A stretch of 64,000 nucleotides of DNA from positions 39,065,979 to 39,129,978 of the forward strand of contig NC_088872.1 of NCBI RefSeq assembly GCF_032884065.1, written 5' to 3'. Each line of letters opens with the position of its first letter. Within the stretch, counting starts at the first letter, position 1. Source of the DNA: Artemia franciscana (taxonomy: Eukaryota > Arthropoda > Branchiopoda > Anostraca > Artemiidae). Both the position numbers and the translations under genes were made by a program. The notes below the pieces were generated by a model. The model made no database searches, had not been told where the DNA came from, and worked only from the letters and a program-made list of their open reading frames with translations. Positions 1,603 to 56,185 of the stretch are shown here, piece by piece.

Positions 1603-3323
1603 GGAGCCAACAGAGAGGTAACCTCTCTATGAGAGGTGTCACAAACGAACAGAAATTACTTCGTATATGAAAGGGGCTGCTTCCTCATCAACATCCCTCT
1701 CTTTACGCTAATGTTTTACCCTTTCTCTCAACTCTTCTTTTTAAAACAGTAAAAACTTTAGCGTAAAGAGCGGGACATTGATGAAGAAGGAGCCCCTTTC
1801 ATATTCGAAGTAATTTCTGTTCTTTTTAAGTTTTAATGTCGCTCTTTACTTTCAGTTAAAAAATTGTCTTTTATTTAATTTCTGAACGTTTTTGAATCAA
1901 TGCATGTTTCGATTTTGGTTCTCCACAGATGAATAATTAAAACGAAATTTGCATATTTCTTTTTTTTTTGGCTAAATGGCTTTCTTATAGTTTTGATCGA
2001 ATGATTTTGAGAAAAAAGGGAGCGGGGGAAGAAGCCTAGTTGCCCTCCTATTTTTTTGGTTACTTAAAAAGGCAACTAGAACTTTTTACTAATAATTGTT
2101 TTATTGTTTACTAATGTTTTTATTAGTAAAAGATATACATAACTTATAAATTAGCTTACGTAACGAACTTTTGTATTCTCATATTTTTATTACATATATG
2201 AGGGGGTTCACCCCCTCGTCAGTACCTCGCTCTTTACACTAAAGCTTAAATTTTGTCCGAATTCATTAAGAATGACCCTGAATCACAAAAGCCGTAGATT
2301 AAATAGCTGAAATTACTAAAAATACTTTAGCGTAAAGAGCGAGGTATTAGGAGGAGTTGAACCCCTCATATGCGTAATAATTTCTGTTCGTTTTGAGTTT
2401 TAATGCTCCTCCTTACTTCCAGTTGAAAAAACATTTTCATATTTATTTTTTCATTGTTTTTCTTTTAAATAATGCTAGAAAATCCTCCGCTCCCTTCATG
2501 AAAATTTTCTTCCCCCATGACAAATTCCTCGATGGAAAGTTCCCCCAACATATCTCCCTCTTCTCAACCCCTCCTCCAACCAAAATATCCGCCTGAAAAC
2601 GTCTGTACACTTCCCAATAACCATTACTATATGTAAGCACTGGTCAATGTTTGTGACTTGTAGCCCCTCCCACGGGCACTGTGGGGGAGTAAGTCGTCCC
2701 CAAAGACATAGTTATAAGGTTTTTCGACTACGCTGAATAAAATGGCTATCTCAAAATTTTGATCCGTTGACTTTGGGAAAATAATTAGCATGGAAGGGGG
2801 CCTAGGTGCCCTCGGATTTTGTTTTTGTCGCTTAAAAAGGGCACTAGAACTTTTCATTTTCGTTAGAATGAGCCCTCTCGCAACAATCTAGAACCACTGG
2901 GTCGATAAGATCACAGATTGGAAAATTTACAACCAAAAAACAAACAAACAAATAAACACGCATCCATGATCTGCCTTCAGGCAAAAAATACAAAATTCCA
3001 CATTTTTGTAGATAGGAGATTGAAAATTCTACAATAGGGTTCTCTGATACGCTAAATCTGATGATGTGTTTTCGTTAAGATTCTATGACTTTTAAGGGGT
3101 GTTTCACCCTATTTTCTAAATAAGGTAAGTTTTCTCAAGCTTTTAACTTTTGATATGTAAGACTAAACTTGATGAAACTTATATGTTTAAAATCAGCATT
3201 AAAATGCGATTCTTTTGATGTAGCTATTGGTACGAAAATACCATTTTTTAGAGTTTTGGTTACTATTGAGCCGGGTCGCTCCTTACTACAGTTCGATACC
3301 ACGAACTGTTTGATTTATAAGGT
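1603..3323 (+). repeat. R1 composite interspersed repeat, near full length
   Basis: This is a copy of the dominant non-coding repeat of the window, called R1 here. Order of landmarks: foldback module, an internal block ending in a second inverted pair (GCTCTTTACACTAAAGC near 2230 and CTTTAGCGTAAAGAGCGAGG near 2325), a block starting at the hairpin exit TTCATGAAAATTTTC, the block TCCCAATAACCATTACTATATG, the block AAAAAGGGCACTAGAACTTTT, and the conserved right end GCTCCTTACTACAG followed by CGAACTGTTTGA. No open frame is shared between copies, so it is non-autonomous. The orientation is arbitrary and is defined by the right end. Confidence 0.85.
1641..1862. repeat. R1 foldback (inverted-repeat) module
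   Basis: The left arm runs from ACAAACGAACAGAAATTAC to CTCTTTACGCTAA. The right arm runs from TTTAGCGTAAAGAGCGGG to the end TGTCGCTCTTTACTTTCAG. The arms are reverse complements over roughly 100 bases around a spacer of about 40 bases. Both arms share variants seen in no other copy, such as CATCAACATCC on the left matching GGACATTGATG on the right. Confidence 0.8.
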
Positions 3324-4084
<761 letters not shown>

Positions 4085-4915
4085 TTCATTTAAAACAATT
4101 CGTAGTAGCGAACCGCAGATAAGGAGCGAAGTAGCTCAATAGTAACCAAAACTCTACAAAACAGAATTTTGATATCCATATATACATCAAAAGAATCGAA
4201 TTATGGTGCTAATTCCAATGCATAAAATGCTGATTCCAAATACATTAAATTCACGTGTTTTGCTTACCGAAAGCTACGAGCCTGAGAAAATTTGTCTGAT
4301 TTTTAAAAAAAGGGAGAAATACTCTCCAAAGCTTAATAAACGCTAATGAAAATCATACCGTCAAATTCAGCGCATAAAAGAACACTTTTGTAGAGGTTTC
4401 AAGCTCTCATCTTCAAAAATGTGGAATATTGCATTTTTTTGCCAAAAGAAAGATGACGGATGCGTGTTTATTAATGTTTTCTTGGTTTTTTGTTGTTGTT
4501 TTTTTCTTCCCGAGGTGATCCTATTGAACCAGTAGACTTAAATATCGGGAGTGGGCTAATTTGAACGGAAATTAAAAGTTTTGTTGCCTTTTTAAGTGAA
4601 CAAAACTATTGGAGGGTATCTAGCTCCTCTCCCATGCCCTTTTTTTCGCCGAAATATTTTGGTCAAAATTTTGAAATAGCCATGACCCGCCACAGCCGCT
4701 GGGATAAGGTCTTTAAGCTATGAAACTTGCCTATTGTTTATGGATAGTATTTCTTACAGGGGAAGTATACATACGTTTCTCAGGTGGGGGAGGGTGAATT
4801 TTCTGCTGGGGGATTTTCACGGGGATAATTGTCCATGGGGAATGACGTTTCTGGGGAATGAACTTGTCTTGTGAAATTTTGCACTGGGGAATTAGCCATA
4901 ATTCCTTTATGAAAT
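4085..4915 (-). repeat. R1 copy, minus orientation, right-end part
   Basis: It begins with a degraded terminal hairpin (CGTAGTAGCGAACCGCAGATAAGGAGCG) and CTCAATAGTAACCAAAACTC, which is the reverse complement of the R1 right end. It continues through the block with CTCTTTTTAAGTG and GGGAAGTATACATACG to about 4915. The foldback module is missing. It is more diverged than the copies at 18.8 and 53.6 kb. Confidence 0.7.
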
Positions 4916-4989
4916 AATTTTTATTTGTCTTACTTTCTTTTTACTAACTCAATTTTACATATGCAGATGTTAATGATTATTTTCTAAGG

Positions 4990-5640
4990 TAAATACTCAC
5001 CGAGACTGAATTGTTGCCCCCTCCTCAGTACCTTGGTCTTTAATCTAAAGTTTGACTTTTTGTTTCAGTTCTTTGACAACAACTCTTGAAAAGCAAGGGT
5101 CGATTAATTAGAACAATAAGAAGCTGAGGTACTTGTGTCTTATAGCCACCACACTCAAGTTTTGTCGAGAAGTGAAGTTTGATTAATACTAATGGAATAA
5201 AAAATATGACAAAAATATAACACTTTATCAGCAAAACTATGCAAACTAAAACAAAGAATTATGGGAGGGGGGCCACCCAGACCACATTATACTAAGTACA
5301 TAAGCTAACTTAACCAAAATACCAGCCAAATATTTAAAAAAAAATAAAGCTACAATGAAGATTCCCACCAAAGCTGCGGCTAATATTGTCTGGTATAAAG
5401 ATCATGAAAACCAGTTATTGTCTCATGTTCACGGAACAAGATCTTGATTGTGGTGGCTATGAGACAAAAGTACTGAAGCTTTTTAGAAGCAATAAAAAAC
5501 TTTAGCGTCAAGAGCAAGGTATTGAGGGGGCAACCCCCCTCATATACGTAATAATTTCTGCTCGTTTTAAGTTTTACTGTTGCTCCTTAATTTCTGTTGA
5601 AAAAACTTGCTTTTTTAAAATACTAACTAAAAGAGTCCTA
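4990..5640 (+). repeat. R1 fragment, plus orientation, foldback region
   Basis: The pair CTCAGTACCTTGGTCTTTAATC (near 5020) and CAAGAGCAAGGTATTGAGG (near 5507) is inverted, and is followed by CTCATATACGTAATAATTTC and TGCTCCTTAATTTCTG. This is a diverged R1 foldback module. Inserted or unrelated sequence separates the two arms by about 450 bases. Confidence 0.6.
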
Positions 5641-6945
5641 GGCATAGTCAGTGACCTTGATCTAAACTGTAAGTTACCACAAATTGCCATAAATTAATCT
5701 TTTCAATTTATAATACTGAAAAGTAAGGATAGTGAACGCAGGGCAAGTGCAATAAGGCTTATCCTTTGAAGGGAGGGGTATGCTTTTGAGCGAGACAAAC
5801 TAATTAAAAAAATAAGAAAAGTTCATGAAAAGCATAGGAAACAATTGCTAAATTTGCTAAAATTTTGGGATTTTAGGGTTGTACTAGCCTGCGCTTTGTT
5901 CTTTTATCTTGTACCACTGATCTGCTATAACTTTCATGGTAAATTATTGGTATTACTTTACGTAATCGCCTTTTATTTTACTGCATATAATATGTTTAGC
6001 ACTATAATTTTGTTCGGTTTAAAAGTTCTATAGTCTAACCATGATCTAACCCGTGCATTCTTGATCATTGTCTCGTCGGAGCAAATCCTGTAGCATTTTC
6101 GTATTAGTGTTTCAGAGCTGGTCTTGGGTCTATTTCTATTGAAATTTGTCGATTAGACTAAACTAGTATAAGCTTTCTAGTCCTTTCCAGAATTGTGATT
6201 CCAAACTTGCAATACTGCTTTTATTATTGACATGGATAAAAACTGATGATTAATTTTTGCCAAAAGTACCATAGCCCATGGCAACAATGACCCCAACCAG
6301 TGGGCGGTCCTGAAGTAACTATTATCACTGAGCTTCCTCCAGTTTGGATATACTGCCTGAGACACTGCTTAGGTACTCACCCACGCAGATTCTGTGACGT
6401 TGAAGAGGCTACTGAGGATTCTGTTAGAAATCCCTGCGGCAGAAAGCAATTGGACAAAGATTTGAGCACAGTGATTATATCAAAAGGTCAGTTACAATTG
6501 AGTATTACAAGTTCATATCCTTATAGCATGAGTTTTGAATTCATCTAAATAGACTGACTGTGTTTTAAATGTATAAGGAAAGGTAAGTGTTTTTGTAAAC
6601 AATTTTACGTAGTTTTATTAGTTGTTTTTGCTCCAGAATTTTTTTCTAGTATGTCATTTAAGTATGTCATCTAGTATCATCTGAAAAACTTTAGTTTACT
6701 ACTGATGCTACTTATTTAATATACTACTTCCCAGTATTCAAGCAAATGCGACCAAGGACTGAAAGCTATTCAGTGAACGTAGAGCCTCTCGTCTCCAAAG
6801 AGATGGAACCCCTCATTTGTACCCCTTTACCTTCAAAAAATGGTTGTGTTTGATCTTGAGATGTCCTTTATCCCTTCCTAGTAGGGCATAACTTATTCCT
6901 GGTTGTGGCAATGCAATTGCGTATTAATCGATCTTTCTATAAATA
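5641..6945. other. Non-coding stretch, nothing recognised
   Basis: I see no domain-bearing frame. An 82-codon open frame at 6300-6548 has more even amino-acid composition than its neighbours. It lacks any motif I recognise and has no clear splice context, so it is not called as a gene. Confidence 0.5.
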
Positions 6946-7208
6946 CAGGGGTGTAATTTCGTAGAGATCCTGGCGAGCAAAGGTGGACCAAATTTTCCCA
7001 AATCAAGTGAAAATGACAATGAAAAATTAGCCATTTAATACATAACTGCAAAGAAATACTGAAGAAAACTGACCCGTTTCTCTGAATTGCGCAGGCTTAT
7101 CTTAATTTTGACAAATTTCTTGAAGAAACTAAATTTCAGCTAGAGGGTGGGGGCACTGGGGTCTAGAAGAGGCAGTTGCCCACTTGCCCCATATAAAATT
7201 AGCCCCTG
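6946..7208. mobile_element. hAT-like MITE, 263 bp
   Basis: The ends are imperfect terminal inverted repeats: left CAGGGGTGTAATTTCGT and right AAATTAGCCCCTG (reverse complement CAGGGGCTAATTT). CAGGGG termini are typical of hAT superfamily MITEs. The flanks TATAAATA and GATAAATG match at 6 of 8 positions and fit an old 8-bp target duplication. The interior, with TCCCAAATCAAGTGAAAATGAC and GCAGGCTTATCTTA, recurs at about 22250-22500 and, inverted, at 33945-34262. It has no coding capacity. Confidence 0.75.
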
Positions 7209-9017
7209 GATAAATGGCGACGTATTTTTGATCCTAGTCCATTCTAGCCATGTCTAACGTAGCCTGAATAGACTGAGTCAGTCATAATCTGTAGCAACAA
7301 GCTAGAATTGCTTTTTGGAATTCAAAAGTATGTCAACTAAATTCTAGGTTAAATTTCCATTTTTTTTTACCGGTGGGCAAGTTCTTAGATCTTCAAGTTA
7401 GCATACGATTTTCTTATTTCCTGATATTACGTCAAATATAGTTTAAGGATAGGTAAACACAACCGAAATCTTTAAGTGAATTGAACAATCTTTTTTGGGG
7501 ATAGAGTTGAATCTTTTTCTATTTGGACTTTCCGTTGTAAACATTCCCAGGAGATGGCTCCCGGGACAGACCTTTAAGGGATATTCATACCTTGTGCACA
7601 TGCAGATTTATATATCTAATTACTTATAGCCCTTATTGCTTTCTAAACAAGAAGGAAAGAAGGGCTATTACTTCCATAAAGCAGAAAGACCAGTGGTAAA
7701 GCAAGGGGTATTCGCCGAGTATACGCTATATAGGGAGGTCGGTTTTATAACCGTAGTTCTATTTTATAAACTTGAGGTATCCTAGTGTCTTCCAATTAAG
7801 GCATATTTGCACTACAACGTTCTCCTTGCTCTGTTGTTTCCATTTTTTCCTCACATATTTTTCTTAAAATAAGTTGCAATTTCATATTGTTTTAGGTCTC
7901 TACTGATTAAAAGTGACTTTTTTCGTAGTTCATCAATCAATATGCTAATAAACAAAACATAAGTCTATCATGTAGGTCGTAACTTATGAGTCAGTTAAAT
8001 TTTGCAACGTTTAAAGTAAGGGGTTGTCAATTCAAGTACGCACACGAAGTTTACTTTGAAACCATACATTTTGCAACTAGATGCGTCAAAACCGCAAAAT
8101 ATATGCCAAGTATATGGAAACTGTGGATATCCTAAAATAACTAGATGCCCGAGATAGAATGGCTAAGACTGACACCCTTCCCCACTCATATACGTGCCCA
8201 TGTCAGTGCGACAGGCATACAGTGCGATCACGTGAACCTTCATTACGCTATTAGGGGCGGGGGAATGGGTGGTTGCATTTTTTCACATTTTGTACTAATT
8301 TTTTTTTGTAGTAAGACATTTTAATTACAAATATCTCGATAAAATTTTCTGGTAGGTTATTGGCTCTTAAAAAAGCCTAAAGTCATTCAAGCAAGTAAAA
8401 TAAGAAGTAATATATATGATGTCAAAAATTACAACTTATATACATCAAAGTAGAAATCTATATTAAGAACTAAAATTTTATTTAAAAACTCTTAGGGAAA
8501 AACAGTAATCAAAAATACCTTTTTGGCTGTTTACCTTTTACCTTATTGGATTGGAACAGGAGTTTGCGTGTAATGCTAAAGCTGGGTACGCAAATTGCGT
8601 TTCATGCAGTAAGCAGAATTTCTTTGGTGTTTTGGTCAGATTTTATTTGTTTTCCCTTGAAATTGCATATGTCCGGACTGTTCAAGAGTTGTGTTTAAAT
8701 ATTTCAACTGAGCAGTTAGAAATACGTTCATTATAGAAATAGATAGAATCTACTGAATCCGTTACTCCAAGTTCTACAGTTTTTCACTTTAATTTTTGCG
8801 TTTTAGCTTCGCGTTTTAGCAGAAAAATAAACATAGTTGCGTGAATCGATGGTTACACTACGGTATTATTTCTTAACATATTAGATGCTATTATCCCCAA
8901 GACAAATAAAGAAATGAGAAAGTTACCTCAGACGACTTTATAGAAAATAATTTTAGCCTTATTATTTCTTCTGTCAATAGAGCGTACTAAACTCAGTTGT
9001 TCACCAAATAAAAAAAA
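7209..9017. other. Non-coding stretch, nothing recognised
   Basis: I see AT-rich sequence without recognisable coding or repeat structure. A 61-codon frame at 8551-8736 has two CxxC-like pairs (around ACNAKAGYANCVSC). It is short, isolated and unsupported by splice sites, so I do not call it. Confidence 0.5.
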
Positions 9018-9741
9018 GCTTATTTTTAACTGCAAGTAAGGAGCGACATTAAAACTTAAAACGAACAGAAATTATTCCGTATATAAAAGGGGTTGACCCC
9101 TCGTCAACGCCTGGCTCTTTGCGCTAAAGTTTGACTCTTTCTCACAACTATACTTTTTAGAACAATAAAAAACTTTAACATAAAGAGCGAGGTGTTGAGG
9201 AGGGGTCAAGCCCTTAAAAAGTCACTTAAAAAGTGACCAATTTTTTGGTCACTTAAAAAGGACACTAGAACTTTTAATTTCCGTTAGAATTAGCCTTCTA
9301 ACGACATTCTAGGACAACTGTGTTGATACAATCATCCCTTGAGAAAAAAAACAACAAAAAAACAAAAAACAAACAAATAAACGCACATCTATGATCTGTC
9401 TTCTGGCAAAAAATTCAAAATTCCAAATTTTTGTAGATACGAGATTGGAAAATTTACAGTAGGGTTTTCTGATGCGCTAAATCGTATGATGTGATTTTCA
9501 TTAAGATTCTATGACTTGTAGGGGATGTTTTCCCCTATTTTCTAAAATAAGGCAAATCTTCTCAGGCTCGTAACTTTTGATAGGTAAGACTAAACTTAAC
9601 AAAACCTATACATTTAAAATCAGGATAAAAATGCAATTCTTTTGATGTAACTCTTGGTATCAAAATTCTATTTTTTAAGGTTTCGGTTGCTATTGAGCCG
9701 GGTCGCTCCTTACTACAATTCGTTACCACGAACTGTTTGAC
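9018..9741 (+). repeat. R1 copy with internal deletion
   Basis: It starts with the module left end CTGCAAGTAAGGAGCGACAT and a foldback at 9018-9215. It then jumps to the GTCACTTAAAAAGGACACTAG block, skipping the middle of R1. It ends in ACCACGAACTGTTTGA at about 9741. The stretch GTCACTTAAAAAGTGACC near 9222-9240 is a local palindrome at the deletion junction. Confidence 0.85.
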
Positions 9742-18787: not shown

Positions 18788-18835
18788 GAACCTGAGTTTA
18801 CACGGCCACAGTCAAGTGATTAAATATAAAAACAA

Positions 18836-20446
18836 GTTTTCTTAACTGCAAGTAAGGAGCGACATTGAGCGACAAGTTTTTTTTATTGTTTGAGAAGGTA
18901 GAGTTGTGACCGAGTCAAACTTTAGTGTAAAGAGCGAAGCGTTGCGGAGGAGACAAGCCCTTTCATATACGGAGTAATTTTTGTTCGTTTTAAGTTTTAA
19001 TGTCGCTCCTTACTTGCAGTTAAAAAAAAACTTGTTTTTATTTATTTAATTTCTGAACGTTTTTGAATTAATACATGTTCTGATTTTGGCGTACCGCGCA
19101 TGAATACTTAAAAACGGAATTTGTATATTATTTTTTTTTTGCTAAATGGCCTTTTCATAGTTTTGATCGGATGATTTTGATACAAAAGGGGTGGGGGAGG
19201 AGGCCTATTTGCCCTCCAATTTTTGGCTACTTAAAAATGCAACTTGATTTTTAATTTTTTGCACGAACGTTTTTGTTAGTAATAAACATACATACCTTAC
19301 GAATTAACTTACGTAACGAATTTCTATATTTGTGCATTTTTATTACGTATATGAGGGGGTTTGCCCCCTCGTCAATACCTTGCTCTTTACATTAAAGCTT
19401 GAATTTTATTCCAAATCTTTACGAATGTCCCCTAAATAACAAAGGCCGTAGAATAATTAGTTGAAATTGCTAAAAATACTTTAGCGTAAAGAGCAAGGTA
19501 TTGTGGAAAAGACGAATCCCCTTATAAACATAATATTTTGTGTTCGTTCTAAGTTTTAATGCTACTCATTACTTCCAGGAGAAATAAAAATTATTTAGTT
19601 TCTCATTTTTTTAAATAATGCTAGAAAATCTTCATGGGAATTCTCTTCTCACGTAATAAATTCATCTATGGAAAGATCCTCCCACATAACCCCCTCCCCC
19701 GACCCACTCCTGCCCCAACGCGAAAAAGTCCCCCTGAAAACGTCTGTACACTTCATAATAACCATTACTATATGTAAACAATGGTCAAAGTTTGTAACTT
19801 ACAGACCCTCCCTCGGGGACTGTAGGGGATTAAGTTGCCCCAAAGACAAAATTATTAGGTTTTCGACTAAGTTGAACAGAAAGGCTATTTCAAAATTTTG
19901 ATCCGGTGCTTCGGGAAAAAACTTGCGTTGGAGGGGGCCTAGGTGCCCTCCAATTTTTTGGTCACTTAAAAAAGCACTAGAAACTTTTAATTTCCGTTAG
20001 AATGAGCCTTCTCGCAACATTCTAGGACGACTGGACTGATACGATCACCCCTAGGGAAAAAAACAAAACAAAAAACAAATAAACACGCATCCGTGATCTG
20101 GCTTCTGGCAAAATTTTTTTTACAAAATTCCACATTTTTGGAGATAGGAGCTTGAAACTTTAACAGTAGAGTTCTCTGATACGCTGAATCTGATGGTGTG
20201 ATTTTCGTTAAGATTATATGACTTTTAGGGTGTCTTTCCCCTTATTTTCTAAAATAAGGCAAATTTTCTCAGGTTCGTAACTTTTGATGGGTAAGACTAA
20301 CCTTGATGAAATTTATATATTTAAAATCAGCATTAAAATGGGATTCTTTTGATGTAGCTATTGGAATCAAAACTCCGTTTTTTAGAGTTTCGGTTACTAT
20401 TGAGCCGGGTTGCTCCTTACTACAGTTCGGTACCACGAACTGTTTG
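18836..20446 (+). repeat. R1 composite repeat, near full length
   Basis: It starts with CTTAACTGCAAGTAAGGAGC and a shortened foldback module (18836-19025), in which the left arm is truncated just after GGAGCGACATTGAGCGACAA. It then contains every R1 block in order and ends CCACGAACTGTTTGA. It is about 1.6 kb long. No frame is conserved with the copies at 1.6 or 53.6 kb. Confidence 0.85.
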
Positions 20447-31104: not shown

Positions 31105-32469
31105 AAACAGTTCATGTTAACAAACTGTAGTAAGGAGCGACTCGGCTCAATAGTAACCGAAACTCTAAACAACAGAATGCTGGTACCAATAGTTACATCA
31201 AAAGAATCGCAATTTAACTCTGATTTTAATTGTACAAGTTTCATCAAATTCAGTCTTACCCATCAAAAATTACAAGCCTGTGAAAATTTCCCTTATTTTA
31301 GAAAATATGACAAAACACCCCTTAAAAGTCATAGAATCTTAACGAAAATCACACCATCAGATTTAGCGTATCAGAGAACGCTACAGTAGATGTTTCAAGC
31401 TCCTATCTGCAAAAATGTGGAATTTTGTATAATTTGCCGCAAGACAGATCATGGATGCGTGTTTATTTGTTTGTTTTTTTGTTTTTTTTTCCAAGGGGTG
31501 ATCATATCAACCCAGTGGCCCTAGAATGTCACTAGAGGGATCATTATAACGGAAATTAAAAGTTCTAGTGCCCTTTTTAAGTGACCAAAAAAATTGGAGG
31601 GCACCTAGGCCCCCTCCCACGCTCTTTTTTTTCCATAGTCACTGGATCAAAATTCCGAGATAGCCGTTGTATTCAGCAGAGTCAAAAACCTTAATAACTA
31701 TATCTTTGGGGACGACTTACTCTCGCACAGTCCCCTTGGGAGGGGCTGCAACTTAAAAACTTTGACAAGTGTTTACACATAGTAATGGTTATCGGGAAGT
31801 GTACAGACACTTTTAGGGGGATTTTTTTGGTTGGGGGTGAGGAGAGGGGCTATGCGGGGAACTTTTCATGGAGAAATTTGTCATGGGGGAATAGAATTTC
31901 CATGACGGGGGTGCGGGATTTTTAGCATGTTTTTAAAGGGCAATGAAAAAATAAGAATAAAAAGTTTCTTAAACTGAAAGTAAGGAGCATCATTAAAAAC
32001 TTAAAACGAACAGAAATTATTACGCATATGAGGGGTCCACCTCCTCCTAATACCTTGCTCTTTACGCTAAAGTAATTTTATTAATTTCAACTATTTATTC
32101 TACAAACACAATTCAAGCTTTAGTGTAAAGAGCGAGGTATTGACGAGGGGTGAACCCCCTCATATACGTAATAAAAAAATACGAATTTAAAAGTTCGTTA
32201 CGTAAGTTAATTCGTAAGTTATGTATATTTTCACTAGTAAAAACATCGGTAAAATTAAAAGTTCTAGTTGTCTTTTTAAGTAACCAAAACATTGGAGGGT
32301 AACTAGGCCTACTCCCCTGCTCCTTTTTTTCTCAAAATCGTCCGATCAAACTGTGAGAAAGCCATTTAGCCAAAGAAAAATAAATTAATATACAAATTCC
32401 GTTTTAATTATTCATGTGCAGAGAGCCAAAAATCAAAAATGTTCAGAAATGAAATACAAAAAACAAGTT
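31105..32469 (-). repeat. R1 copy, minus orientation
   Basis: It begins TCAAACAGTTCATG and AAGGAGCGACTCGGCTC, which is the reverse of the R1 right end, and runs through every block in reverse order to ACTTACGTAA and GTATATTTTCACTAG near 32230. The small fragments of open frame over it correspond to the same sequence in other copies and are not genes. Confidence 0.85.
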
Positions 32470-32735
32470 TTTTAACTGAAAGTAAGGAGCAACATAAAAA
32501 CTTCAAACGAACAGAAATTACTCCGTATATAGAAGGGGTTGTTCCCTCCTCAACACTCCGTCTTCACGCTAAAGTTTTTTTTACTGTTTTAAAAAGTAGA
32601 GTTGATAGAAAGAGTCAAACTTTAGCATAAAGAGCGGGGCGTTGAGGAGGGAACAGCCCCTTCATATACTGAGTAATTTCTGTTCGTTTTAAGTTTTAAT
32701 GTTGCTCCTTACTTTCAGTTAAAAAAGCTTTTTTT
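32470..32735. repeat. R1 foldback module
   Basis: The arms start TTTTTTAACTGAAAGTAAGG and end CCTTACTTTCAGTTAAAAAA. Each is about 105 bases and is separated by a spacer near 32575-32610. Both arms share GGGTTGTTCCCTCCTCAAC and its complement GTTGAGGAGGGAACAGCCCC. R1 sequence leaves it in both directions, minus on the left and plus on the right. Confidence 0.85.
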
Positions 32736-33050
32736 ATTTTAATTGTAGATATGAGCTTGAAGCCTCTACAATAGGATTCTCTGATACGCTAAATATGATG
32801 GTGTGATTTTCATTAAGGTTCTATAACTTTTAGGGGGTGTTTCCCCGTTTTTCCGAAAATAAGGCGAATTTCGTCAGGCCATAAAATATGATGGGTAAAA
32901 CTAAAATGGACGAGACTTATATATTTGAAATCAACATAAAAATTCAATTCCTTTGATGTATCTATTGGTGTCAAAATGTTTTTAGAGTTTCGGTTACTAT
33001 GGAGCCGGGCTGCTCCATACTTACAGTTGGTTACCTCGAACTATTTGAAC
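32736..33050 (+). repeat. R1 right end, plus orientation
   Basis: A short R1 terminal segment follows the module directly: GAGCTTGAAGCCTCTACAAT to GCTCCATACTTACAGTTGG and CTCGAACTATTTGAAC. The middle of R1 is deleted. Confidence 0.75.
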
Positions 33051-38365: not shown

Positions 38366-40430
38366 TATAAGATAAGATAAGATTTATTCATCACGAAACA
38401 CACATACAATATTAAATTTTACTATTTCCCCAAAGGCTCTTTGGCCTGTAAAAAAGGGGAAAATGAACGAGCCACTTACTCAGAGAAGAAAAAAAAATAT
38501 AATCACTTACTCACAGAGAGAAGAGCAAAAAGGAGAAGAAAGGAAAATATAAATAAAATAAAAAACTATAGAAAACAAAACTAAATAGACTAATAGATTG
38601 AATAGACTAAATTAATTATGTAGATCTGTAGATAAAATAGACTCCAATGAAATAATAAGGAAATATATATACATAGACTACATACACGCATATACACATA
38701 CAAAAATAGATAAAATAAATTCTAAGAAGTCAATGAATTTTTAATATTTTTTTGAACAAACCGAATGAGTGGCACCTTCGAGCTGATTCGGGCAACTTAT
38801 TCCATACAATATAACTCGCAATTAAAGGATTAAAGTCTGACCTTACACAAGGAGTAAAAGGAACTTGAATATGATTTTCGGTGTTGCGAAGCTTATAATT
38901 ATTCTGATCAGAGGTGAAAGATGGCTGAACACTTAGGGGACGGGGGAGGTCACCATGAAGCTGAGAAAAATTAAAACATGCACACGAAAGAATATACAGT
39001 GACTCGAGATCAAGTAATGGGATAACTCTTGAACGGTTAGTTTCCTTAATGAGGTTTCTAGCTTTATTATAAACCTTAGAAAGTGGTTTTAACAGTGAAG
39101 GAAAGGTTGAAATCCATACTATTGGACAGTAGGAAACGTAAGATCGGATCAAGGAGTGAAAAACGATTTCCAAAATTGATCCAGGGAAAATATGTTTGAG
39201 TTTCCTTAAAATACCGAGACTCCTGCATATCTTCATTTTAATCAAATCAATGTGACGCTTGAAAGACAAGTTTTCATCAACAAGAATGCCCAAAAAACGA
39301 ACATATCGATCTTTAGATCTGTGAATTATCCCATTTGGCTGATAAATTTCTGATAACTTGGGATAAATCTGAGAAACATGCGAAAATATCAAAAAATTGG
39401 ATTTTCAATAATTTAGGGTAAGAAAATTAGCATCAAGCCATGAAATTACTCTCTCAAACAAGTATTCCAAGTTTAATCGAAGCTCGGATTCACAGTTCCC
39501 CGAAGTGCCGAGTGTGGTATCATCAGCAAAACAAACAAGGACATCAGAAGATGGCGAACTATAGCTGGCACTATGGGCAAGGGAAGGTTTAGGATGACAG
39601 AGTCTACAGCAATGAATAGGCTTCTGCTTTTTTACTGCGTAAAAAAGATCATTTATATAAATCAAAAATAGCACTGGCCCTAAAACTGATCCCTGAGGGA
39701 CGCCAAAATTCACTTGTGATTGACAGAAATTAAATTGTGGATTGACAGAAATTAACCTATCATTCAAATAAGATTGAAACCAAGAAAATACATTACCCCT
39801 AATGCCAAAATGAGACATCTTCGATAGAAGAATTTCATGGGTTAAGGAATCGAATGCCTTGCGAATATCCAGGAATATAGCAGCCGGAATTAATCCCGAA
39901 TCCAATTCAGAATGTATAAAATTCAAAAGGGTCATACATGCATGCTCAGTGGAGTGCTTCATTCGGAAACCAAATTGAAAATCATGAAGAAACTCTTTAG
40001 ATTTTAGAAATTTAAGCAGACGAGAAAGCATAGCCTTTTCGAAGATTTTACTAAATACTGATAAAATTGAAATTGGTCGATAATTTGCTGGATCATTTCT
40101 TGGTCCACCTTTATACAGAACAATAATCCGAGCACGCTTGAGAGGATCTGGAAAAACCCCATATTTAAATGAAAGATTAACAAGTTTTGTAAGAGGCACA
40201 ACTATTGAAGGAAGAATAGATTTAACTACCTTAGTAGGAATAGAATCTGGCCCAGGTGAAGATGAGTCTTTCAAGCCATTAACAATTTTAGTGATTTCAA
40301 TTTCTGTTACTGGCTCTAGAAACATAGACTTAACACAAGACGGCCCGAGGTAAGATCTAAAGTCCGACTTAGACCGAGATAAAGTAGCTGTGGAAGTGGA
40401 AGCGATATTATTACCAATACAATATTGTCA
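38366..40430 (-). mobile_element. CR1/jockey-type LINE, 5'-truncated
   Basis: It is read on the minus strand. The 3' end is a TTATC microsatellite tail (38366-38384) preceded by about 340 bases of untranslated sequence. The coding part is the C-terminal two-thirds of ORF2. The endonuclease region is absent, and the reading frame begins near 40428 just after a TGA. A second truncated copy of its 5' part lies at 42041-42301 (see the duplication). Confidence 0.85.
38730..40427 (-). pseudogene. LINE ORF2 reverse transcriptase remnant
   Basis: A single frame runs on the minus strand with one in-frame TGA at 39405-39407. The first part (306 codons from 40325, open from 40427) contains SSPGPDSIPTKVV, NYRPISILSVFSKIFEK, FGFRMKHSTEHA, the catalytic FLDIRKAFDSLTHEIL, FGVPQGSVLGPVLFLIYIND and the FADD box. 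The second part (38730-39392) begins after the stop in the YLGI-type region (RFLGILVDENLSFKRHI) and carries the LINE C-terminal thumb region (VFHSLIRSYVSYCPIVW) and the end NKLPESARRCHSFGLFKK. All catalytic aspartates are intact, so only the TGA separates the two parts of the product. The enzyme would reverse-transcribe the element's own RNA at a nicked target, but no endonuclease is encoded here. Confidence 0.9.
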
Positions 40431-40586
40431 CTGATATTGTATCAGCTCCTTGTGCAAAGATTTTTTTTCAATTTTTTGCACATCAAAAGCTCCAATTTTG
40501 AACTCGATATTTGTGCCGGTGAAAAGAAGAACATGCAACGCATTAAATAAAAGAGAAATTATAAGGTATCTTAATAGAAAATTCGG

Positions 40587-40802
40587 ATGAAAGACAGACG
40601 ATCGAGCTTAGTGACTCAACTTGGTCTAAGTGATGAAAGACTGGAGAGCCTAATTAGAGTAAAGCCAAAAGAGACTGTCTCTGTGGGAGGAAAAGCCGGC
40701 ATAACTTTTACAGGGTTGTATAAAAATAATTATTTTCAATTTTTGATGTTAGTTTATCATCCAAGGGGAAAAGTAAAGCAGATAGTCATAGAGTATGGGT
40801 AA
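40587..40802 (+). CDS. Hypothetical 71-residue frame in the duplicated segment, copy A
   Basis: The frame starts ATGAAAGACAGACG and ends at TAA after Tyr-Gly. Its composition is more protein-like than its surroundings (for example TQLGLSDERLESLIRVKPKE, then GGKAGITFTGLYKNN). I recognise no family. It lies between the 5' break of the LINE and the R1 foldback. An identical frame is present in copy B, but that only reflects the recent duplication, not selection. There is no clear splice context. It could be an exon fragment of an unknown element or chance. Confidence 0.25.
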   Translation: MKDRRSSLVTQLGLSDERLESLIRVKPKETVSVGGKAGITFTGLYKNNYFQFLMLVYHPRGKVKQIVIEYG

Positions 40803-40834
40803 TTTCTGGCTCTAACCAGATTAAATAATTTTTT

Positions 40835-41387
40835 TTTAACTGAAAGTAAGGAGCGACATTAAAACCTAAAATGAACAGAGATTGCTCCATATATGAAAGG
40901 GACTGTTCCCTCCTCAACGCCTTGCTCTTTATGCTAAAGTTTGACTCTTTCTCTCAAGTCTACTTTTTCAAACAGAAAAAAACTTTAGCGTAAAAAGCGG
41001 GATGTTGAGAAGGGAACAGCCCCTTTCATTTACGGAGTAATCTCTGTTCGTCTTAAGTTTTAATGTCACTCCTTACTTTTAGTTAAAAAACTTATTTTTT
41101 TTTATTTAATCTCTGAACGTTTTTGAATTAATGCATGTTTTGATTTTGGCTCTCCGCACATGAATAACTAGAACGAAATTTGCATATTAATTTATTTTTT
41201 TGACTAAATGGCTTTCTCAGAGTTTTGATCGGACGATTTTGAGAAAAACAGGAGCGGGGGAGGAGGCCTAGTTGCCTTCCAATTCTTTGGTTACTTAAAA
41301 AGGTAACTAGAACTTTTAATTTTTTTATGAACATTTTTATTAGTAAAAATATACATAAGTTACGAATTAACTTACGTAACCAACTTA
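40835..41387 (+). repeat. R1 left part with foldback module (copy A)
   Basis: The module (40835-41085) has arms sharing private variants: GAACAGAGATTGCTCC on the left with GGAGTAATCTCTGTTCG on the right. It is followed by the R1 block to CTTACGTAACCAACTT, where it is cut off by the minisatellite. Confidence 0.85.
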
Positions 41388-41830: not shown

Positions 41831-42040
41831 TGTCTCTCTCACCTTGCCTGTATGTCTCAAAGTATGATTTGCCTGTCTCTTGGCCTGTATTTGTGTGTTT
41901 TTGTGTCTTACGCTATCTAGCCACTGAGTGCAATGGTGGTGTGAATTGCCTTGGACTATCACTTTAAATTAATGAAATGGTATATTCCCGCCATTCCAAT
42001 AAAAAATAATAATCGGGATATTCTAACATCAGAAACATCA
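41831..42040. other. Minisatellite flank and junction between duplicated segments
   Basis: It holds the flank of the minisatellite family (to about 41965) and then about 75 bases of AT-rich sequence running to the start of copy B at 42041. There is no gene. Confidence 0.6.
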
Positions 42041-43257
42041 ATGAAAGATTAACAAGTTTTGTAAGAGGCACAACTATTGAAGGAAGAATAGATTTAACTA
42101 CCTTAGTAGGAATAGAATCTGGCCCAGGTGAAGATGAGTCTTTCAATCCATTAACAATTTTAGTAATTTCAATTTCTGTTACTGGCTCTATAAACATAGA
42201 CTTAACACAAAACGGCCCGAGGTAAGATCTAAAGTCCGACTTAGACCGAGATAAAGTAGCTGTGGAAGTGGAAGCGATATTATTACCAATACAATATTGT
42301 CACTGATATTGTATCAGCTCCTTGTGCAAAGATTTTTTTTCAATTTTTTGCACATCAAAAGCTCCAATTTTGAACTCGATATTTGTGCCGGTGAAAAGAA
42401 GAACATGCAACGCATTAAATAAAAGAGAAATTATAAGGTATCTTAATAGAAAATTCGGATGAAAGACAGACGATCGAGCTTAGTGACTCAACTTGGTCTA
42501 AGTGATGAAAGACTGGAGAGCCTAATTAGAGTAAAGCCAAAAGAGACTGTCTCTGTGGGAGGAAAAGCCGGCATAACTTTTACAGGGTTGTATAAAAATA
42601 ATTATTTTCAATTTTTGATGTTAGTTTATCATCCAAGGGGAAAAGTAAAGCAGATAGTCATAGAGTATGGGTAATTTCTGGCTCTAACCAGATTAAATAA
42701 TTTTTTTTTAACTGAAAGTAAGGAGCAACATTAAAACATAAAATGAACAGAGATTGCTCCATATATGAAAGGGACTGTTCCCTCCTCAACGCCTTGGTCT
42801 TTATGCTAAAGTTTGACTCTTTCTCTCAAGTCTACTTTTTCAAACAGAAAAAAACTTTAGCGTAAAAAGCGGGATGTTGAGAAGGGAACAGCCCCTTTCA
42901 TTTACGGAGTAATCTCTGTTCGTCTTAAGTTTTAATGTCACTCCTTACTTTTAGTTAAAAAACTTGTTTTTTTTTATTTAATCTCTGAACGTTTTTGAAT
43001 TAATGATTGTTTTGATTTTGGCTCCGCACATGAATAACTAGAACGAAATCTGCATATTAATTTATTTTTTTGACTAAATGGCTTTCTCAGAGTTTTGATC
43101 GGACGATTTTGAGAAAAACAGGAGCGGGGGAGGAGGCCTAGTTACCTTCCAATTCTTTGGTTACTTAAAAAGGTAACTAGAACTTTTAATTTTTTTATGA
43201 ACATTTTTATTAGTAAAAATATACATAAGTTACGAATTAACTTACGTAACCAACTTC
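42041..43257 (+). repeat. Direct duplication, copy B (about 1.2 kb)
   Basis: This is a near-identical copy of 40168-41387. Visible differences include GAGCAACATT for GAGCGACATT, CTTGGTC for CTTGCTC, and a two-base loss in GGCTCCGCAC. The minus-strand LINE remnant in it spans 42041-42301, and the frame from 42197 encodes only the segment around SSPGPDSIPTKVV before running into unrelated DNA. Confidence 0.9.
42459..42674 (+). CDS. Hypothetical 71-residue frame in the duplicated segment, copy B
   Basis: The translation is identical to the frame at 40587-40802. It has the same neighbours: a LINE fragment on the left and an R1 foldback on the right. No function can be assigned. Confidence 0.25.
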   Translation: MKDRRSSLVTQLGLSDERLESLIRVKPKETVSVGGKAGITFTGLYKNNYFQFLMLVYHPRGKVKQIVIEYG

Positions 43258-43800: not shown

Positions 43801-44806
43801 CTATTCCCTGTGTCGCCGTCGTCATTTATATATCCCCCTGTGCCCCCCGGCGTCCCCGTTGTAGTTGTGTCCCTGTGTCCCGGTCGTCATTTATATTCCC
43901 TGTGTCCCGGTCGTCATTTGTGTCCCGGTGTCCCAGTCTGTGATTTCTCTTTGAGTGTCCTGGGCGTCATGTATATTCCTTGTGTCCCGGTCGTCATTTG
44001 TGTCCCGGTGTCCCGGTCTGTATATACATTCGTTTTTGAATTGGTCTTTTTTTAGTTTTTAGTTTTTTACCTTTTTTTTAGTTTTTTTTAGTTATACCTC
44101 ATGATTCTAATGATTGCCCTTGAGCTTTGTTGATGGTGATTGTTAATCGAACACTCCCTGTGTCCCCGTCGTCATTTATATATCCCCCTTTGCCCCCCGG
44201 CGTCCCCTTTGTAGTTGTGTCCCTGTGTCCTGGTCGTCATTTATATTCCCTGTGTCCCGGTCGTCACTTGTATCCCGGTGTCCCGGTCTGTATATAAATT
44301 CGTCTTCGAAATGGTATATGATGAAATAAATTTTTGTATTTTTCCCCTTTTTGTCTCTTTAGTTTTTTTTATTTTTATTTTTTTTAGTTTTGTTTTTCTG
44401 CTTTATTTTTCATTTTTTTCTTTTTTTTATTTTTTTTCTTTTTTAGTTTTTTTAGTTTTTTAGCTTTTTTAGTTTTTTTTATTAGTTTTTATTTTTTTTT
44501 CTTTTTAGTTTTTTTGTAGTTTTTACCTTTTTTTTAGTTTTTTTAGTTTTTTTTTACTTATGTCCTGGTCGTCATTTATACTCCCTGTGTCCCGGTCGTC
44601 ATTTGTGTCCCAGTGCTTTGTTGATGGTGATTGCTAATCGAACATTCCTTGTGTCCCGGTCGCTTTCTCTTTGAGTGTCCCGGTCGTAATTTATATTCCC
44701 TATGTGCCGGTGTCCCGGTCGTCATTTGTGTCCCGATGTCCCGGTCTGTAATTTCGTCAGTCGAAAACATGACGTCAGTCGACACACAAACATGACGTCA
44801 CTCGAC

Positions 44807-45409
<603 letters not shown>

Positions 45410-45430
45410 ACTTATTTTTATATATATAGA

Positions 45431-51860: not shown

Positions 51861-53570
51861 CTTGAGGTTTTTTTTTGTGAGTTTTATCTCTCTTTGTTGT
51901 TTGGTAAATAGATTAATGACTAAGAAGTTAGTACGTTTGTTTATTGTTTATTTATATCATTTTGACCTTAACTGCGTGTCAATTTGGTAAAACCTGTAGA
52001 AAAACAATTTTACACTGCCTTCGAAAGCCGTTGTGCCACGTGAATAATACATCACTTTTTATGACGGATCTTTAGCTCGAACTAGTATCAGGAGAAGACG
52101 TTTTCAAGCTTTTACTCCCGCTCTCCCTCCCCATACATAAAAGAAGAGAACTTTTAGAAACGAAAATAAAGCCAATCTAATTTGTCTAGGAAGGACAGTT
52201 CAAACTTTCATCTCCACCCCGTGTTTACTTTTGCCGCTTGAAGCAATCTATGAAAATAGTTCCCAACTCTAAGAATAAGATACAATTTGACCTAGGACCG
52301 GGGTCAAATCCTCCCAAATGATTTGTTACGGCTGACAGTTAAAGAAAAGTATACTTTATCAAAGTTAACATGCCCAAAGGACTTGTATTCATAGAGTCTT
52401 CAAGCATTGCGAGCATGGTAGGGTGACGGTAGGAGCCTTAAAATACTGCTCTTAATTTGAATCCAACAACTAAGAATTTGAATCATGCTTCTCAACAAGT
52501 TTCCTATTTAGATAAACCTTGGCTTCAATAATTCGGTCTTAAACTTAATCACATCTTTTAAACTTGATCAAAACATATACTCGGCACAGCCATCTCAAGC
52601 GTTTTCTGCTCATAAAAATATATTCAGTCACCTTAGTTGTAGCTTAGGGGTAGCGTTTGCCTCTTTCTACAGCTCTTACATAAATAGCCAGTATGGCTTA
52701 TATTATTTTAAATTCTCTGCGTTGATTTTTTTGCATATTGAAGTCAACAATTTTCCCAACAGTTGTCGTTGGCTAGTATAATTTTCATATCATCTTTGTT
52801 TGATTTGTCACGACACATGCACGCGCCAAAGTCTTATCTTCAATCGTCAAACAGTCATTTAAAAAAACATTTTTTTCCTCCCAAGATGGATGTTTTAATG
52901 ATGGTAGAGTTCTTTTCAAGGAATTTAAAAGCGGCGATTTGTATCTTAAAGGAAGGCAATCACAAAGACTTAAATCGCAAAACTCTTCCCACTTAAGAAC
53001 TGTTTTTTTCACGACGAGTCTCCGCTTGACATAATCTCTTATTTCATGGGTGGCCTCTATTGTGGTAGTGAGATATACACACTTGGGATGGGTTGTGTTA
53101 ATTTCATTGCCGTTTACGTTTCCAGTAACAGGACATTAGTAGATATAATTTATTGACTAGTTTCATTCAGTGGAGTGTTGATTTACATGTCAAATAAAAG
53201 GAAAGTGAGATAAAATTCAACCGCAGAAAATAATGTTGTCTTTCATCACATGGCAGATCGTTGCGAACCTAAAGAGGACGAACTGCTTACGTATACCGGA
53301 AAGTGTCCATACGTATACGTATACGGGACGGGCGGCTTACGTATAGGTATAATAAGATCAAGTTCAATTCAATGGAGCAATGTGCAATATGAAACCTCGG
53401 CAGCGTGGAAAATAGAGATAGATTTTTTTGCCGTACCCTCCAGCTATTCAAGTCATTTGCTATCATATTTCAATGGGTTTGCTGCTTTTTGCTTTAGTAT
53501 GATAATTTCCTTCACTTCCCTGTCGAATCTGTCTAATTTGGAACGTTGCACCTTAGCCTTGTTTTTGAAT
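51861..53570. other. Non-coding stretch, nothing recognised
   Basis: No gene or repeat family is recognised. A 107-codon frame at 53250-53573 begins plausibly (MADRCEPKEDELLTYTG) over a GTATACG-rich spot near 53293-53350, but has no motif. Confidence 0.45.
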
Positions 53571-53866
53571 TAAATAAAAAAAACTAATTTTTTTTAGCTG
53601 AAAGTAAGGAGCGACATTAAAACTTAAAACGAACAGAAATTACCCCGTATATGAAATGATTTGTCCCCTCCGCAATCCCTCGCTCTTTACGCTAAAACTT
53701 TTAATTGTTTTAAAAAGTAGAATTGTGGCAAAGAGTCAAACTTTAGCGTAAAGAGCGAGGGATTGCGGAGGGGACAAATCATTTCATATACGGAGTAATT
53801 TCTGTTCGTTTTAAGTTTTAATGTCGCTCCTTACTTTCAGCTAAAAAAATTAGTTTTTTTTATTTA
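53571..53866. repeat. R1 foldback module, near-perfect 130-bp arms
   Basis: The arms 53571-53700 and 53740-53866 are reverse complements with very few mismatches around a spacer of about 39 bases. Variants unique to this copy are present in both arms: AAATGATTTGTCCCCTCCGC on the left and GCGGAGGGGACAAATCATTT on the right. The transcript would form a long, almost fully paired hairpin. Confidence 0.92.
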
Positions 53867-55325
53867 ATTTCTGAACGTTTTTGAATTAATGCATGTTTGG
53901 TTTTGGCTCTCCGCACATAAATTAATAAAAATGAAATTTGTATATTAATTCTTTTTTTGGCTAAATGGCTTTCTCTTAGATTTGATCAGACTATTTTGAG
54001 AAATAAGGGGTGGAGAAGGAGGCCTAGTTGCCCTCCAATTTTTCGGTTACTTAAAAAGGTAACTAGAACTTTTAATTTTTAACGAACGTTTTTATTAGTA
54101 AGAAATATAGGTAACTTGAGAATTAACTTACGTAACAAACTTTCATAACCTTATTTATTTATTATGTATACGAGTGGGTTTGTACCCTCGTTAATACCTC
54201 GCTCTTTACACTAAATCGTAAGTTTTGTCCCAATTCTTTAAGAATGACCCCTGAATCAGAAAGGCCGTAGAATAAATAGTTGAAATTACTAAAAATACTT
54301 TAGCATAAAGAGTAAGGTATTTATCTCCTCCTAAATACCTCGCTCTTTATGCTAAAGTAGTTTTAGAATCCCTCATATGCGTAATAATCTCTGTTCGTTT
54401 TAAGTTTCAATGCTACTTCTTCCTTTCATTTGAAAAAAAAACGTTTTCATGTTTATTTTTCATTGTTTTCTTATAGTAATGCTAGAGAATCCTGCGCCTT
54501 TGTCATTTAATTTTTCTTCCCCCATGACAGATTCCTCCAAGGAAAGATCCTCCAAAATAGCCCCCTCTCCTCAGCCCCACCCCTAAACAAAATAAAATCC
54601 CCCTGAAAACGTCTGTACACTTCCCAATAACCATTACTATATGTAAACACTGGTCAAAGTTTGTAACTTGTAGCCCCTCCCCCAGCAATTGTGGGGGAGT
54701 AAGTCATCCCCAAAGACATAGTTATTATATTTTTCGACTATGTTGAACAAAATGGCAATCTCAAAATTTTGATCCGTTGACTTTGGGAAACAAATGAGCG
54801 TGGGAGGGGGCCTAGATGCCCTCCAATTTTTTTGGTCACTTAAAAAGGGCACTAGAACTTTTCATTTACGTTAAAATGAGCCCTCTTGCGAGATTCTAGG
54901 ACCATTTGGTCGATACGATTACCCCTGGGAAAAAAAACAAAAACAAAAAAAAAAAAAAACAAATAAACACGCACCCGTGATTTGTCTTCTGGCAAAAAAT
55001 GCAAAATTCCACATTTTTGTAGATAGGAGCTTGAAACTTCTACAGTAGGGTTCTCTGATACGCTGAATCTGATGGTGTCATTTACGTTAAGATCCTACGA
55101 CTTTTAGGGGGTGTTTCCCCCTATTTTCCTAAATAAGTCAAATTTTCTCAGGCTCGTAACTTTTGATGGGTAAGACGAAACTTGATGAAACTTATATATT
55201 TAAAATCAGCATTAAAATGCGATTCTTTTGATGTAGCTTTTGATATCAAAATTCAATTTTTTAGAGTTTTGGTTACTATTGAGCCGGGTCGCTCCTTACT
55301 ACAGTTCGTTACCACGAACTGTTTG
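53571..55325 (+). repeat. R1 composite repeat, best full-length copy (1.75 kb)
   Basis: All blocks are in order: foldback module 53571-53866; CTGAACGTTTTTGAATTAATG block; GGTTACTTAAAAAGGTAACTAG (an internal palindrome); ATTAACTTACGTAAC; second inverted pair 54197 and 54303; CAATAACCATTACTATATG; GGTCACTTAAAAAGGGCAC; an A-rich tract near 54930-54965; GTTCTCTGATACGCTGAATC; and the right end at 55275-55323, where CAGTTCGT and ACGAACTG form a hairpin. The left tip carries GTAAGGAGCGAC and the right end GTCGCTCCTTAC, so the whole element also has a 12-bp inverted pair at its ends. It is non-coding. Confidence 0.9.
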
Positions 55326-56185
55326 ATAGCTTTGATTCATCAATGGCCTTCTGTTTTTTTTATGTAATCATTCAAGCCAATACTGACAATTTTCGTGCTT
55401 AATTTTATTTCAGACTGATTAAAAGGCAACGAAACAATGACATTTACTTCTTTCTGTAATCAATTAAAGAAAAAAAAATCCAAAAATGAAGTTTTTCAAA
55501 GAAAAGTAAAGAGCCATATTATACTTAAGACCACCAGAAATAAATCTCTATATTAATTAAAACTCGAAACTACAAGAAATTGCTATTAAAGAATAAATGA
55601 AACCCCAAACGAACAGAAATTGAAACAAACAATTGTAAAACACATAAAGATAACAGTTACAAATACCGACGAATAAATAAGTATTAAAACCATTAAAAAT
55701 TAGATTAGATATTCAAGTAAAATATAAAACAAACAAAAATTACTACAAATAGGAGATTGTCTGCTGTCCCTTTCCTCTTTCCCTAACCATAAAAGTCTAA
55801 AGCCTGTTGCGTCCTTTGTGTTTTTTTTTTTAAAACTATATATATAATATGTAAACTATACATAACAGAGTACTCTTGTTTTTGAAAACATCGATGACAC
55901 ATAAAAAACAAATCACAGCCACGAAATGGCTGTATTACAATTCTGACCAGACGTCTTTGGGGGTGAGGGCAGCTAAAAACGATACAGGAGAGGGGCTGGA
56001 TGCCCTTCGATCACTTTTCAACTTACCCTGAACGTTTCAACTCAAAACGCTGCAAGTCAGCCGTTCTTAGATATTGTTGATACGCCTTTTTGAAAACCTG
56101 GATTCACACAGTATGGTTTGATTTTGATTTAATTTAGCTGCTCCTCAATATTCCTCAAAGTTTCATATTCATACTCTTAACTTTA

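Follow-up and report, generated by a model that had tools for sequence, protein, structure and literature searches.

The hairpin module R1 is the 5'-terminal foldback, about 300 bp long, of a non-coding interspersed element of about 1.76 kb that is abundant in the genome of Artemia franciscana. Substitutions that define the subfamilies of this element stand in both arms of the hairpin, whereas changes seen in a single copy are almost always confined to one arm. This points to arm-to-arm correction, or selection for pairing, as a process of the transposing lineage that had little or no effect on resident copies. Dispersed copies of the element record arm changes from before and after transposition and thus provide a natural experiment on the timing of inverted-repeat correction. 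The contrast between both-arm subfamily changes and one-arm single-copy changes links the matching of arms with the element's cycle of copying, or with selection acting on the element, rather than with slow chromosomal repair. In those parts of the literature that were available to us we found no account of the R1 family, nor of arms being corrected solely in a transposing lineage.

The window, by which we mean the whole 64,000-nt stretch analysed (contig NC_088872.1, positions 39,065,979 to 39,129,978, forward strand), is eukaryotic. GC content is mostly 0.31-0.45, long two-base repeats are present and frames at 38.7-40.3 kb and 57.4-61.5 kb are reverse-transcriptase-like from the reading of their translations. 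In the window Rfam returned 0 matches at gathering score and a tRNA scan found nothing; exact-pattern scans of viral contigs and genome contigs gave no match. An AC array of 605 bases (44805-45409) adjoins the start of an R2-type element at 45411.

Both full and truncated copies of the R1 element are found in the window (Table 1). Of the 24 copies read at both ends, 17 allowed the termini to be placed by pattern; in these the element starts with ATTAAATAAA (one variant) and finishes with TTTGA. The full window copy runs from ATTAAATAAA... to ...GAACTGTTTGA(T). The 17 copies carry no target-site duplication, the mean junction duplication being 1.65 nt compared to 1.64 nt for re-paired flanks. 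When the same copies were examined for the TT insertion site of Helentron/HINE elements, a T preceded the element in 9/17 and followed it in 12/17. Two R1 element copies were found inserted in further copies of the same family, one (L047) to within about 1 base of a clean insertion and the other (L029) noisier.

Table 1. Features of the R1 element and its relatives in the window (window coordinates)
Feature	Positions	Strand	Remarks
Full ~1.76-kb non-coding element copy, subfamily Ls	53569..55327	+	Ends set from 17 copies with both flanks; 3' ends common to window copies
R1 left arm	53569..53696	+	Starts at the 5' terminus of the element
R1 loop	53697..53741	+	Orientation opposite to most F, A and C subfamily copies
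R1 right arm	53742..53868	-	Mirrors the 5' terminus down to ATTTAAT
13-nt motif AGTAAGGAGCGAC	53603..53615	+	34 nt from 5' end; mirrored in right arm at 53823-53835; hand count
Inverted copy of 13-nt motif, GTCGCTCCTTACT	55288..55300	-	Near 3' end; hand count
3' terminal hairpin, 8-bp stem ACAGTTCG..CGAACTGT	55301..55322	+	4-5 nt from end; hand count
R2 hairpin module of the 53.6-kb copy	54159..54455	+	Outside the 12 of the R2 control
Nested fold-back in R2	54289..54366	+	Inverted duplicate of right-arm start, ~35-nt arms, 8-nt loop; hand count
R1 copy A, subfamily A	1643..1881	+	Left arm 5'-truncated; element extends to 3314
R2 module of copy A	2186..2445	+	In R2 control
R1 copy B	9006..9215	+	Right arm truncated (internal deletion of element); outside the 102
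R1 copy C	18819..19046	+	Left arm partly deleted, loop inverted relative to relatives; outside the 102
R1 copy I, subfamily F	32450..32741	-	Element on minus strand, 32744-31103
R1 copy J, subfamily F	40828..41108	+	88-90% to scored relatives other than K
R1 copy K	42700..42980	+	Segmental duplicate of J; outside the 102

A preliminary description of the window had reported five R1 hairpins (at 1.6, 32.5, 40.8, 42.7 and 53.6 kb) whose arms resemble each other more than the same arm of another copy. Hairpins are indeed present at all five places. At 53.6 kb two arms of 130 nt (53567-53696 and 53742-53871), spaced by 45 nt, are 93% complementary without gaps and 98.4% over 126 nt with gaps, and the strand folded as DNA gives z = -32.9 against shuffles. 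The closer likeness of arms within a copy is true of two hairpins in the window, at 53.6 kb (within-copy identity 0.977 against 0.843 for the best other copy) and 1.6 kb (0.893 against 0.863), but not at 32.5 kb (0.871 against 0.886), nor at 40.8 kb (0.825 against 0.886) and 42.7 kb (0.807 against 0.886) when the duplicate is left out. The last two sit in one segmental duplication (40168-41386 and 42040-43256, 98.9% over 1.2 kb), so the five modules are really four. Three motif pairs had been quoted as mirrored between arms: AATGATTTGTCCCCTCCGC and its exact complement both occur in the 53.6-kb copy, while the exact complements of AGAGATTGCTCC (40.8 and 42.7 kb) and CATCAACATCC (1.6 kb) are absent from the window, the opposite arms being one and two bases off respectively. 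Mirrored variants had also been taken as private to each copy; in fact they are subfamily alleles common to many copies. A search with the 53.6-kb hairpin returned itself and 39 others among the 40 scored of 809 candidates, all 97-99% identical over nearly all of its 296 bp. First-look candidates ranged from 809 to 8,122 by query, which is no copy number.

Copies were collected as best matches to window copies L, I, J, A and C, together with 20 systematic 10-kb stretches (200 kb) which contributed 6 usable modules, so the sample consists mostly of best matches to the window copies. Three modules were dropped first (a window copy fetched twice, K as a duplicate of J, and one R2 module), leaving 114; 5 of these were without two usable arms, window copies B and C included, and removal of 7 duplicates from the remaining 109 gave 102 copies. 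Among the modules dropped were L110, L116 and L118 of the C set, which had no assigned body side. Arms were compared over a 101-column core. The copies fall into four subfamilies, F (39 copies), Ls (27), A (25) and C (11), which differ at 15 of the 101 columns; the C consensus used for assignment was composed by us from that of the C set.

When left and right arms were assigned separately they fell into the same subfamily in 102/102 copies, compared to 29.3 under random pairing (maximum 45 in 2000), in agreement with the earlier claim that independent mutation could not produce the mirrored variants. Left and right consensus sequences are identical over the 101 columns in query sets L (27 modules), I (20), J (20) and A (20), and differ at 2 positions in the small mixed C set (12 modules). 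At the 15 diagnostic columns the arms of a copy agree at 0.919 against 0.571 for random pairing; agreement at the other columns is 0.941. Non-CpG variants present in at least 9 copies gave 387 mirrored and 118 one-armed cases, while those in 2-8 copies gave 35 mirrored and 308 one-armed, so that the contrast between mirrored and one-armed variants rests on the commonest ones. We attribute the one-armed excess among variants in 2-8 copies to mutations that recurred, C-to-T or G-to-A in many cases. Mirroring extends to variants within subfamilies, such as Ls columns 64 (6/6) and 2 (3/3) and F columns 3 (4/4) and 20 (7/8), with others mixed (8 mirrored against 4 one-arm at Ls column 65, and 6 against 8 at F column 75). 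At a threshold of at least 4 copies two variants are limited to one arm, in 5 copies each and both at column 87: a G>T in the left arm of subfamily A (5/25 copies), apparently transmitted unmirrored, and a G>A at a CpG in the right arm of subfamily F. Matching is thus not enforced at every cycle.

Among copies of known body side, read with the body to the right, the loop is inverted in 26/27 Ls, 1/38 F, 1/25 A and 0/10 C copies. It is also inverted in window copy C, which lies outside the 102 as its left arm is deleted. The two lone inverted-loop copies with both arms comprise one with ordinary arms (0.921) and one with very similar arms (0.980). Matches to the nested fold-back of R2 lie at 11 loci (L001-L009, L015 and L025, L001 being the window copy), all of which carry an Ls-type R1. 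Both the inverted loops and the nested fold-back look like products of template switching. In L008 one variant of the nested fold-back is present in both of its arms, and in L001 its arms differ.

The second hairpin of the element, R2, served as a control. In three copies of the window its loops measure 81-88 nt; among R1 modules with complete arms, most have loops of 36-46 nt. Arm matching was absent from the 12 of 29 R2 matches with both arms readable: within-copy identity was 0.757, and between copies it was 0.755 for left-right, 0.809 for left-left and 0.750 for right-right comparisons. The control is a modest one because the comparison covered about 57 nt of arm and R2 arms show greater divergence throughout; it also lost carriers of the nested fold-back (the modules of L001, L002, L004-L008 and the 53.6-kb copy).

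The explanation that accounts best for these results, and to which we give moderate credence, is that R1 belongs to an element of probably rolling-circle type in whose source lineage arm matching was restored by arm-to-arm copying of DNA at replication or transposition. Restoration would have occurred again and again, through template switching or through correction within single-stranded DNA that had folded into the hairpin. The short loop of R1 would favour copying between arms and the longer loop of R2 would not, and events of the same kind could give rise to both the loop inversions and the nested fold-back. No parent-daughter events of the element were observed, and an identical consensus pattern would also result from selection for pairing in the source. 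A more tentative extension of this explanation is that R1 acts as a self-proofreading end: at every single-stranded stage of transposition its arms could fold and have their mismatches removed by copying. Matching would then be kept up in the transmitted lineage only, and the concerted evolution of arms, being coupled to transposition, would end with insertion.

Selection for pairing is the main rival to copying, and both may act. As the sole cause we regard it as rather unlikely: mobility would need a paired hairpin, recognised as folded DNA or acting as double-stranded RNA, and only sources with compensated arms would spread. Selection for a paired RNA in the source lineage is possible. Consistent with such selection, consensus arms are identical in the larger subfamilies, and the outer arm with its 13-nt motif is nearly constant between subfamilies (2 of the 15 diagnostic columns lie in columns 1-49). 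Diagnostic changes are concentrated in columns 50-85 (13/15, compared to 265/591 one-arm differences; p = 0.0013), which could mean either that the outer arm is constrained or that a loop-proximal tract is involved. Stepwise compensation, however, predicts more intermediates than the two arm-confined variants at column 87. The loop inversions and nested fold-back require a copying or recombination event, and the arms of R2 are unmatched. One-arm changes show no G.U strand bias either (187 vs 195, p = 0.72; 203 transversions), though these bear on resident copies only.

The preliminary description had favoured arm-to-arm correction. Gene conversion of this kind acting continuously in resident copies we consider improbable. 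With 102 copies, 77/79 single-copy deviations lie in one arm and 2/79 in both (95% CI 0.3-8.8%). A first sample of 58 copies had given 8 mirrored and 109 one-arm single-copy changes, a result more favourable to conversion, but the larger sample turned most of these mirrored changes into shared variants. Duplicated copies tell the same story. Eight pairs with common 5' flanks differ by 4 (J/K), 1, 3 and 3 substitutions, and by zero in four pairs; none of the 11 arm differences is mirrored. Five belong to pairs whose 5' flanks are identical, and the other 6 to L039/L041 and L059/L066, which are less certain duplicates with flanks 0.94 and 0.92 alike; as the poly-A part of L059/L066 aligns badly, its substitutions were taken from the first pair count. 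Ongoing correction in resident copies is thus not supported as the main process. In each subfamily, nevertheless, mirrored deviations outnumber those of a null matched for load and spectrum (21 against 12.6 in Ls, 47 against 12.1 in F, 21 against 5.0 in A and 18 against 9.4 in C), and left and right arms resemble each other 1-2% more closely when they belong to one copy than when they come from two copies of a subfamily. We read this excess and closeness as finer subfamilies, though resident correction at a low rate may contribute. Separately, flank and hairpin are near-identical in L032, L033, L035 and L040 (C4 and C5), which represent a duplicated segment that includes the element.

A tree of the 204 arms (FastTree, 101 columns, support values unused) needs 4 subfamily changes and 66 changes of arm side, against 64-76 (mean 70.7) when labels are swapped within copies. 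The preliminary description had proposed to test whether the arms of one copy are sisters. This is so in 19/102 copies, above the mean of 4.4 (maximum 11) obtained by re-pairing within subfamilies and to that extent in favour of resident conversion. It had also allowed that its reading would fall if left arms clustered apart from right arms, or if the shared variants were common ancestral alleles; left arms form no clade apart from right arms, whereas the variants are indeed alleles common to many copies.

Least probable, by a hair, is snap-back copying that rebuilds the right arm from the left at each transposition: the right arm does mirror the 5' terminus of the element and Ls arms are near-identical (0.9824 within copies), but the arm-confined variants at column 87, in 5 copies each, speak against it and loop inversion is not predicted by it.

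With respect to classification, canonical Helitrons start with TC and end with CTRR, and the R1 element, with ATTAAAT at its 5' end and TTTGA at its 3' end, is not one of them. Foldback elements and MITEs have terminal inverted repeats at both ends and a target-site duplication; the R1 element has a palindrome at one end only and no such duplication. It resembles the non-autonomous Helentron elements HINE and DINE-1, which also have no long open frame, a 13-nt inverted motif near both ends, a short 3' hairpin and no target-site duplication (PMC4067079). The 8-bp stem of the R1 element lies 4-5 nt from the end, nearer than the 8-35 nt given for the 3' palindrome of HINEs (PMC4067079). In contrast to HINE and DINE-1, the R1 element has a 300-bp terminal hairpin, and its motif stands 34 nt inward of the 5' terminus and some 27 nt inward of the 3' terminus. 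The inverted subterminal repeats of mite HINEs, 12-15 bp long, are placed at distances of 2-4 nt (5') and 38-60 nt (3') from the termini (PMC4067079). Since the published 5' spacing does not hold and no autonomous partner was found in the loci read, we do not file the element under Helentron.

Other inverted repeats share parts of this behaviour. Tetris foldback elements have long inverted repeats, and homogenisation was suggested for the internal repeats of 2/3 complete copies (PMC4079207), but both arms of R1 are at one end of the element, which carries no target-site duplication. Long inverted repeats of Caenorhabditis are likewise more conserved in structure than in sequence, and active maintenance was inferred (PMC1803023); those described are gene pairs and intergenic sequences, whereas R1 consists of mobile-element copies. 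A further parallel is with template switching, where identical arms, inverted loops and fold-backs arise from one copying event (PMC8604942, PMC8794818). In yeast genes it homogenises arms and inverts spacers, mostly as separate events, homogenisation accompanying 1/10 spacer inversions (2-5 substitutions; PMC8604942). Template switching was proposed to create and maintain RNA hairpins, and in RNA genes compensatory change together with loop inversion was not above chance (PMC8794818). R1 displays both arm homogenisation and loop inversion at the subfamily level, possibly as separate events. It differs from these systems in its arms of about 130 nt and loops of about 40 nt, in belonging to a dispersed element, and in that matching is found in transmitted variants and hardly in resident changes.

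Neither the 13-nt motif nor the ends of the R1 element occur in four 3.5-kb loci (L145-L148) and two 2.5-kb flanks of a fifth, Helitron-type places where an autonomous partner (Rep/helicase and endonuclease, with the same ends) was sought. Matches to Helitron_like_N (150 of 7436 candidate places scored) fall within open frames that reach 2,091 codons, and many have equal scores, which suggests recent Helitron activity in the genome. Tandem arrays of the CCGGGACAC type occur at 43.8-44.8 kb and 50.5-51.0 kb of the window, and similar words are present in L150, the flank of a Helitron-type frame.
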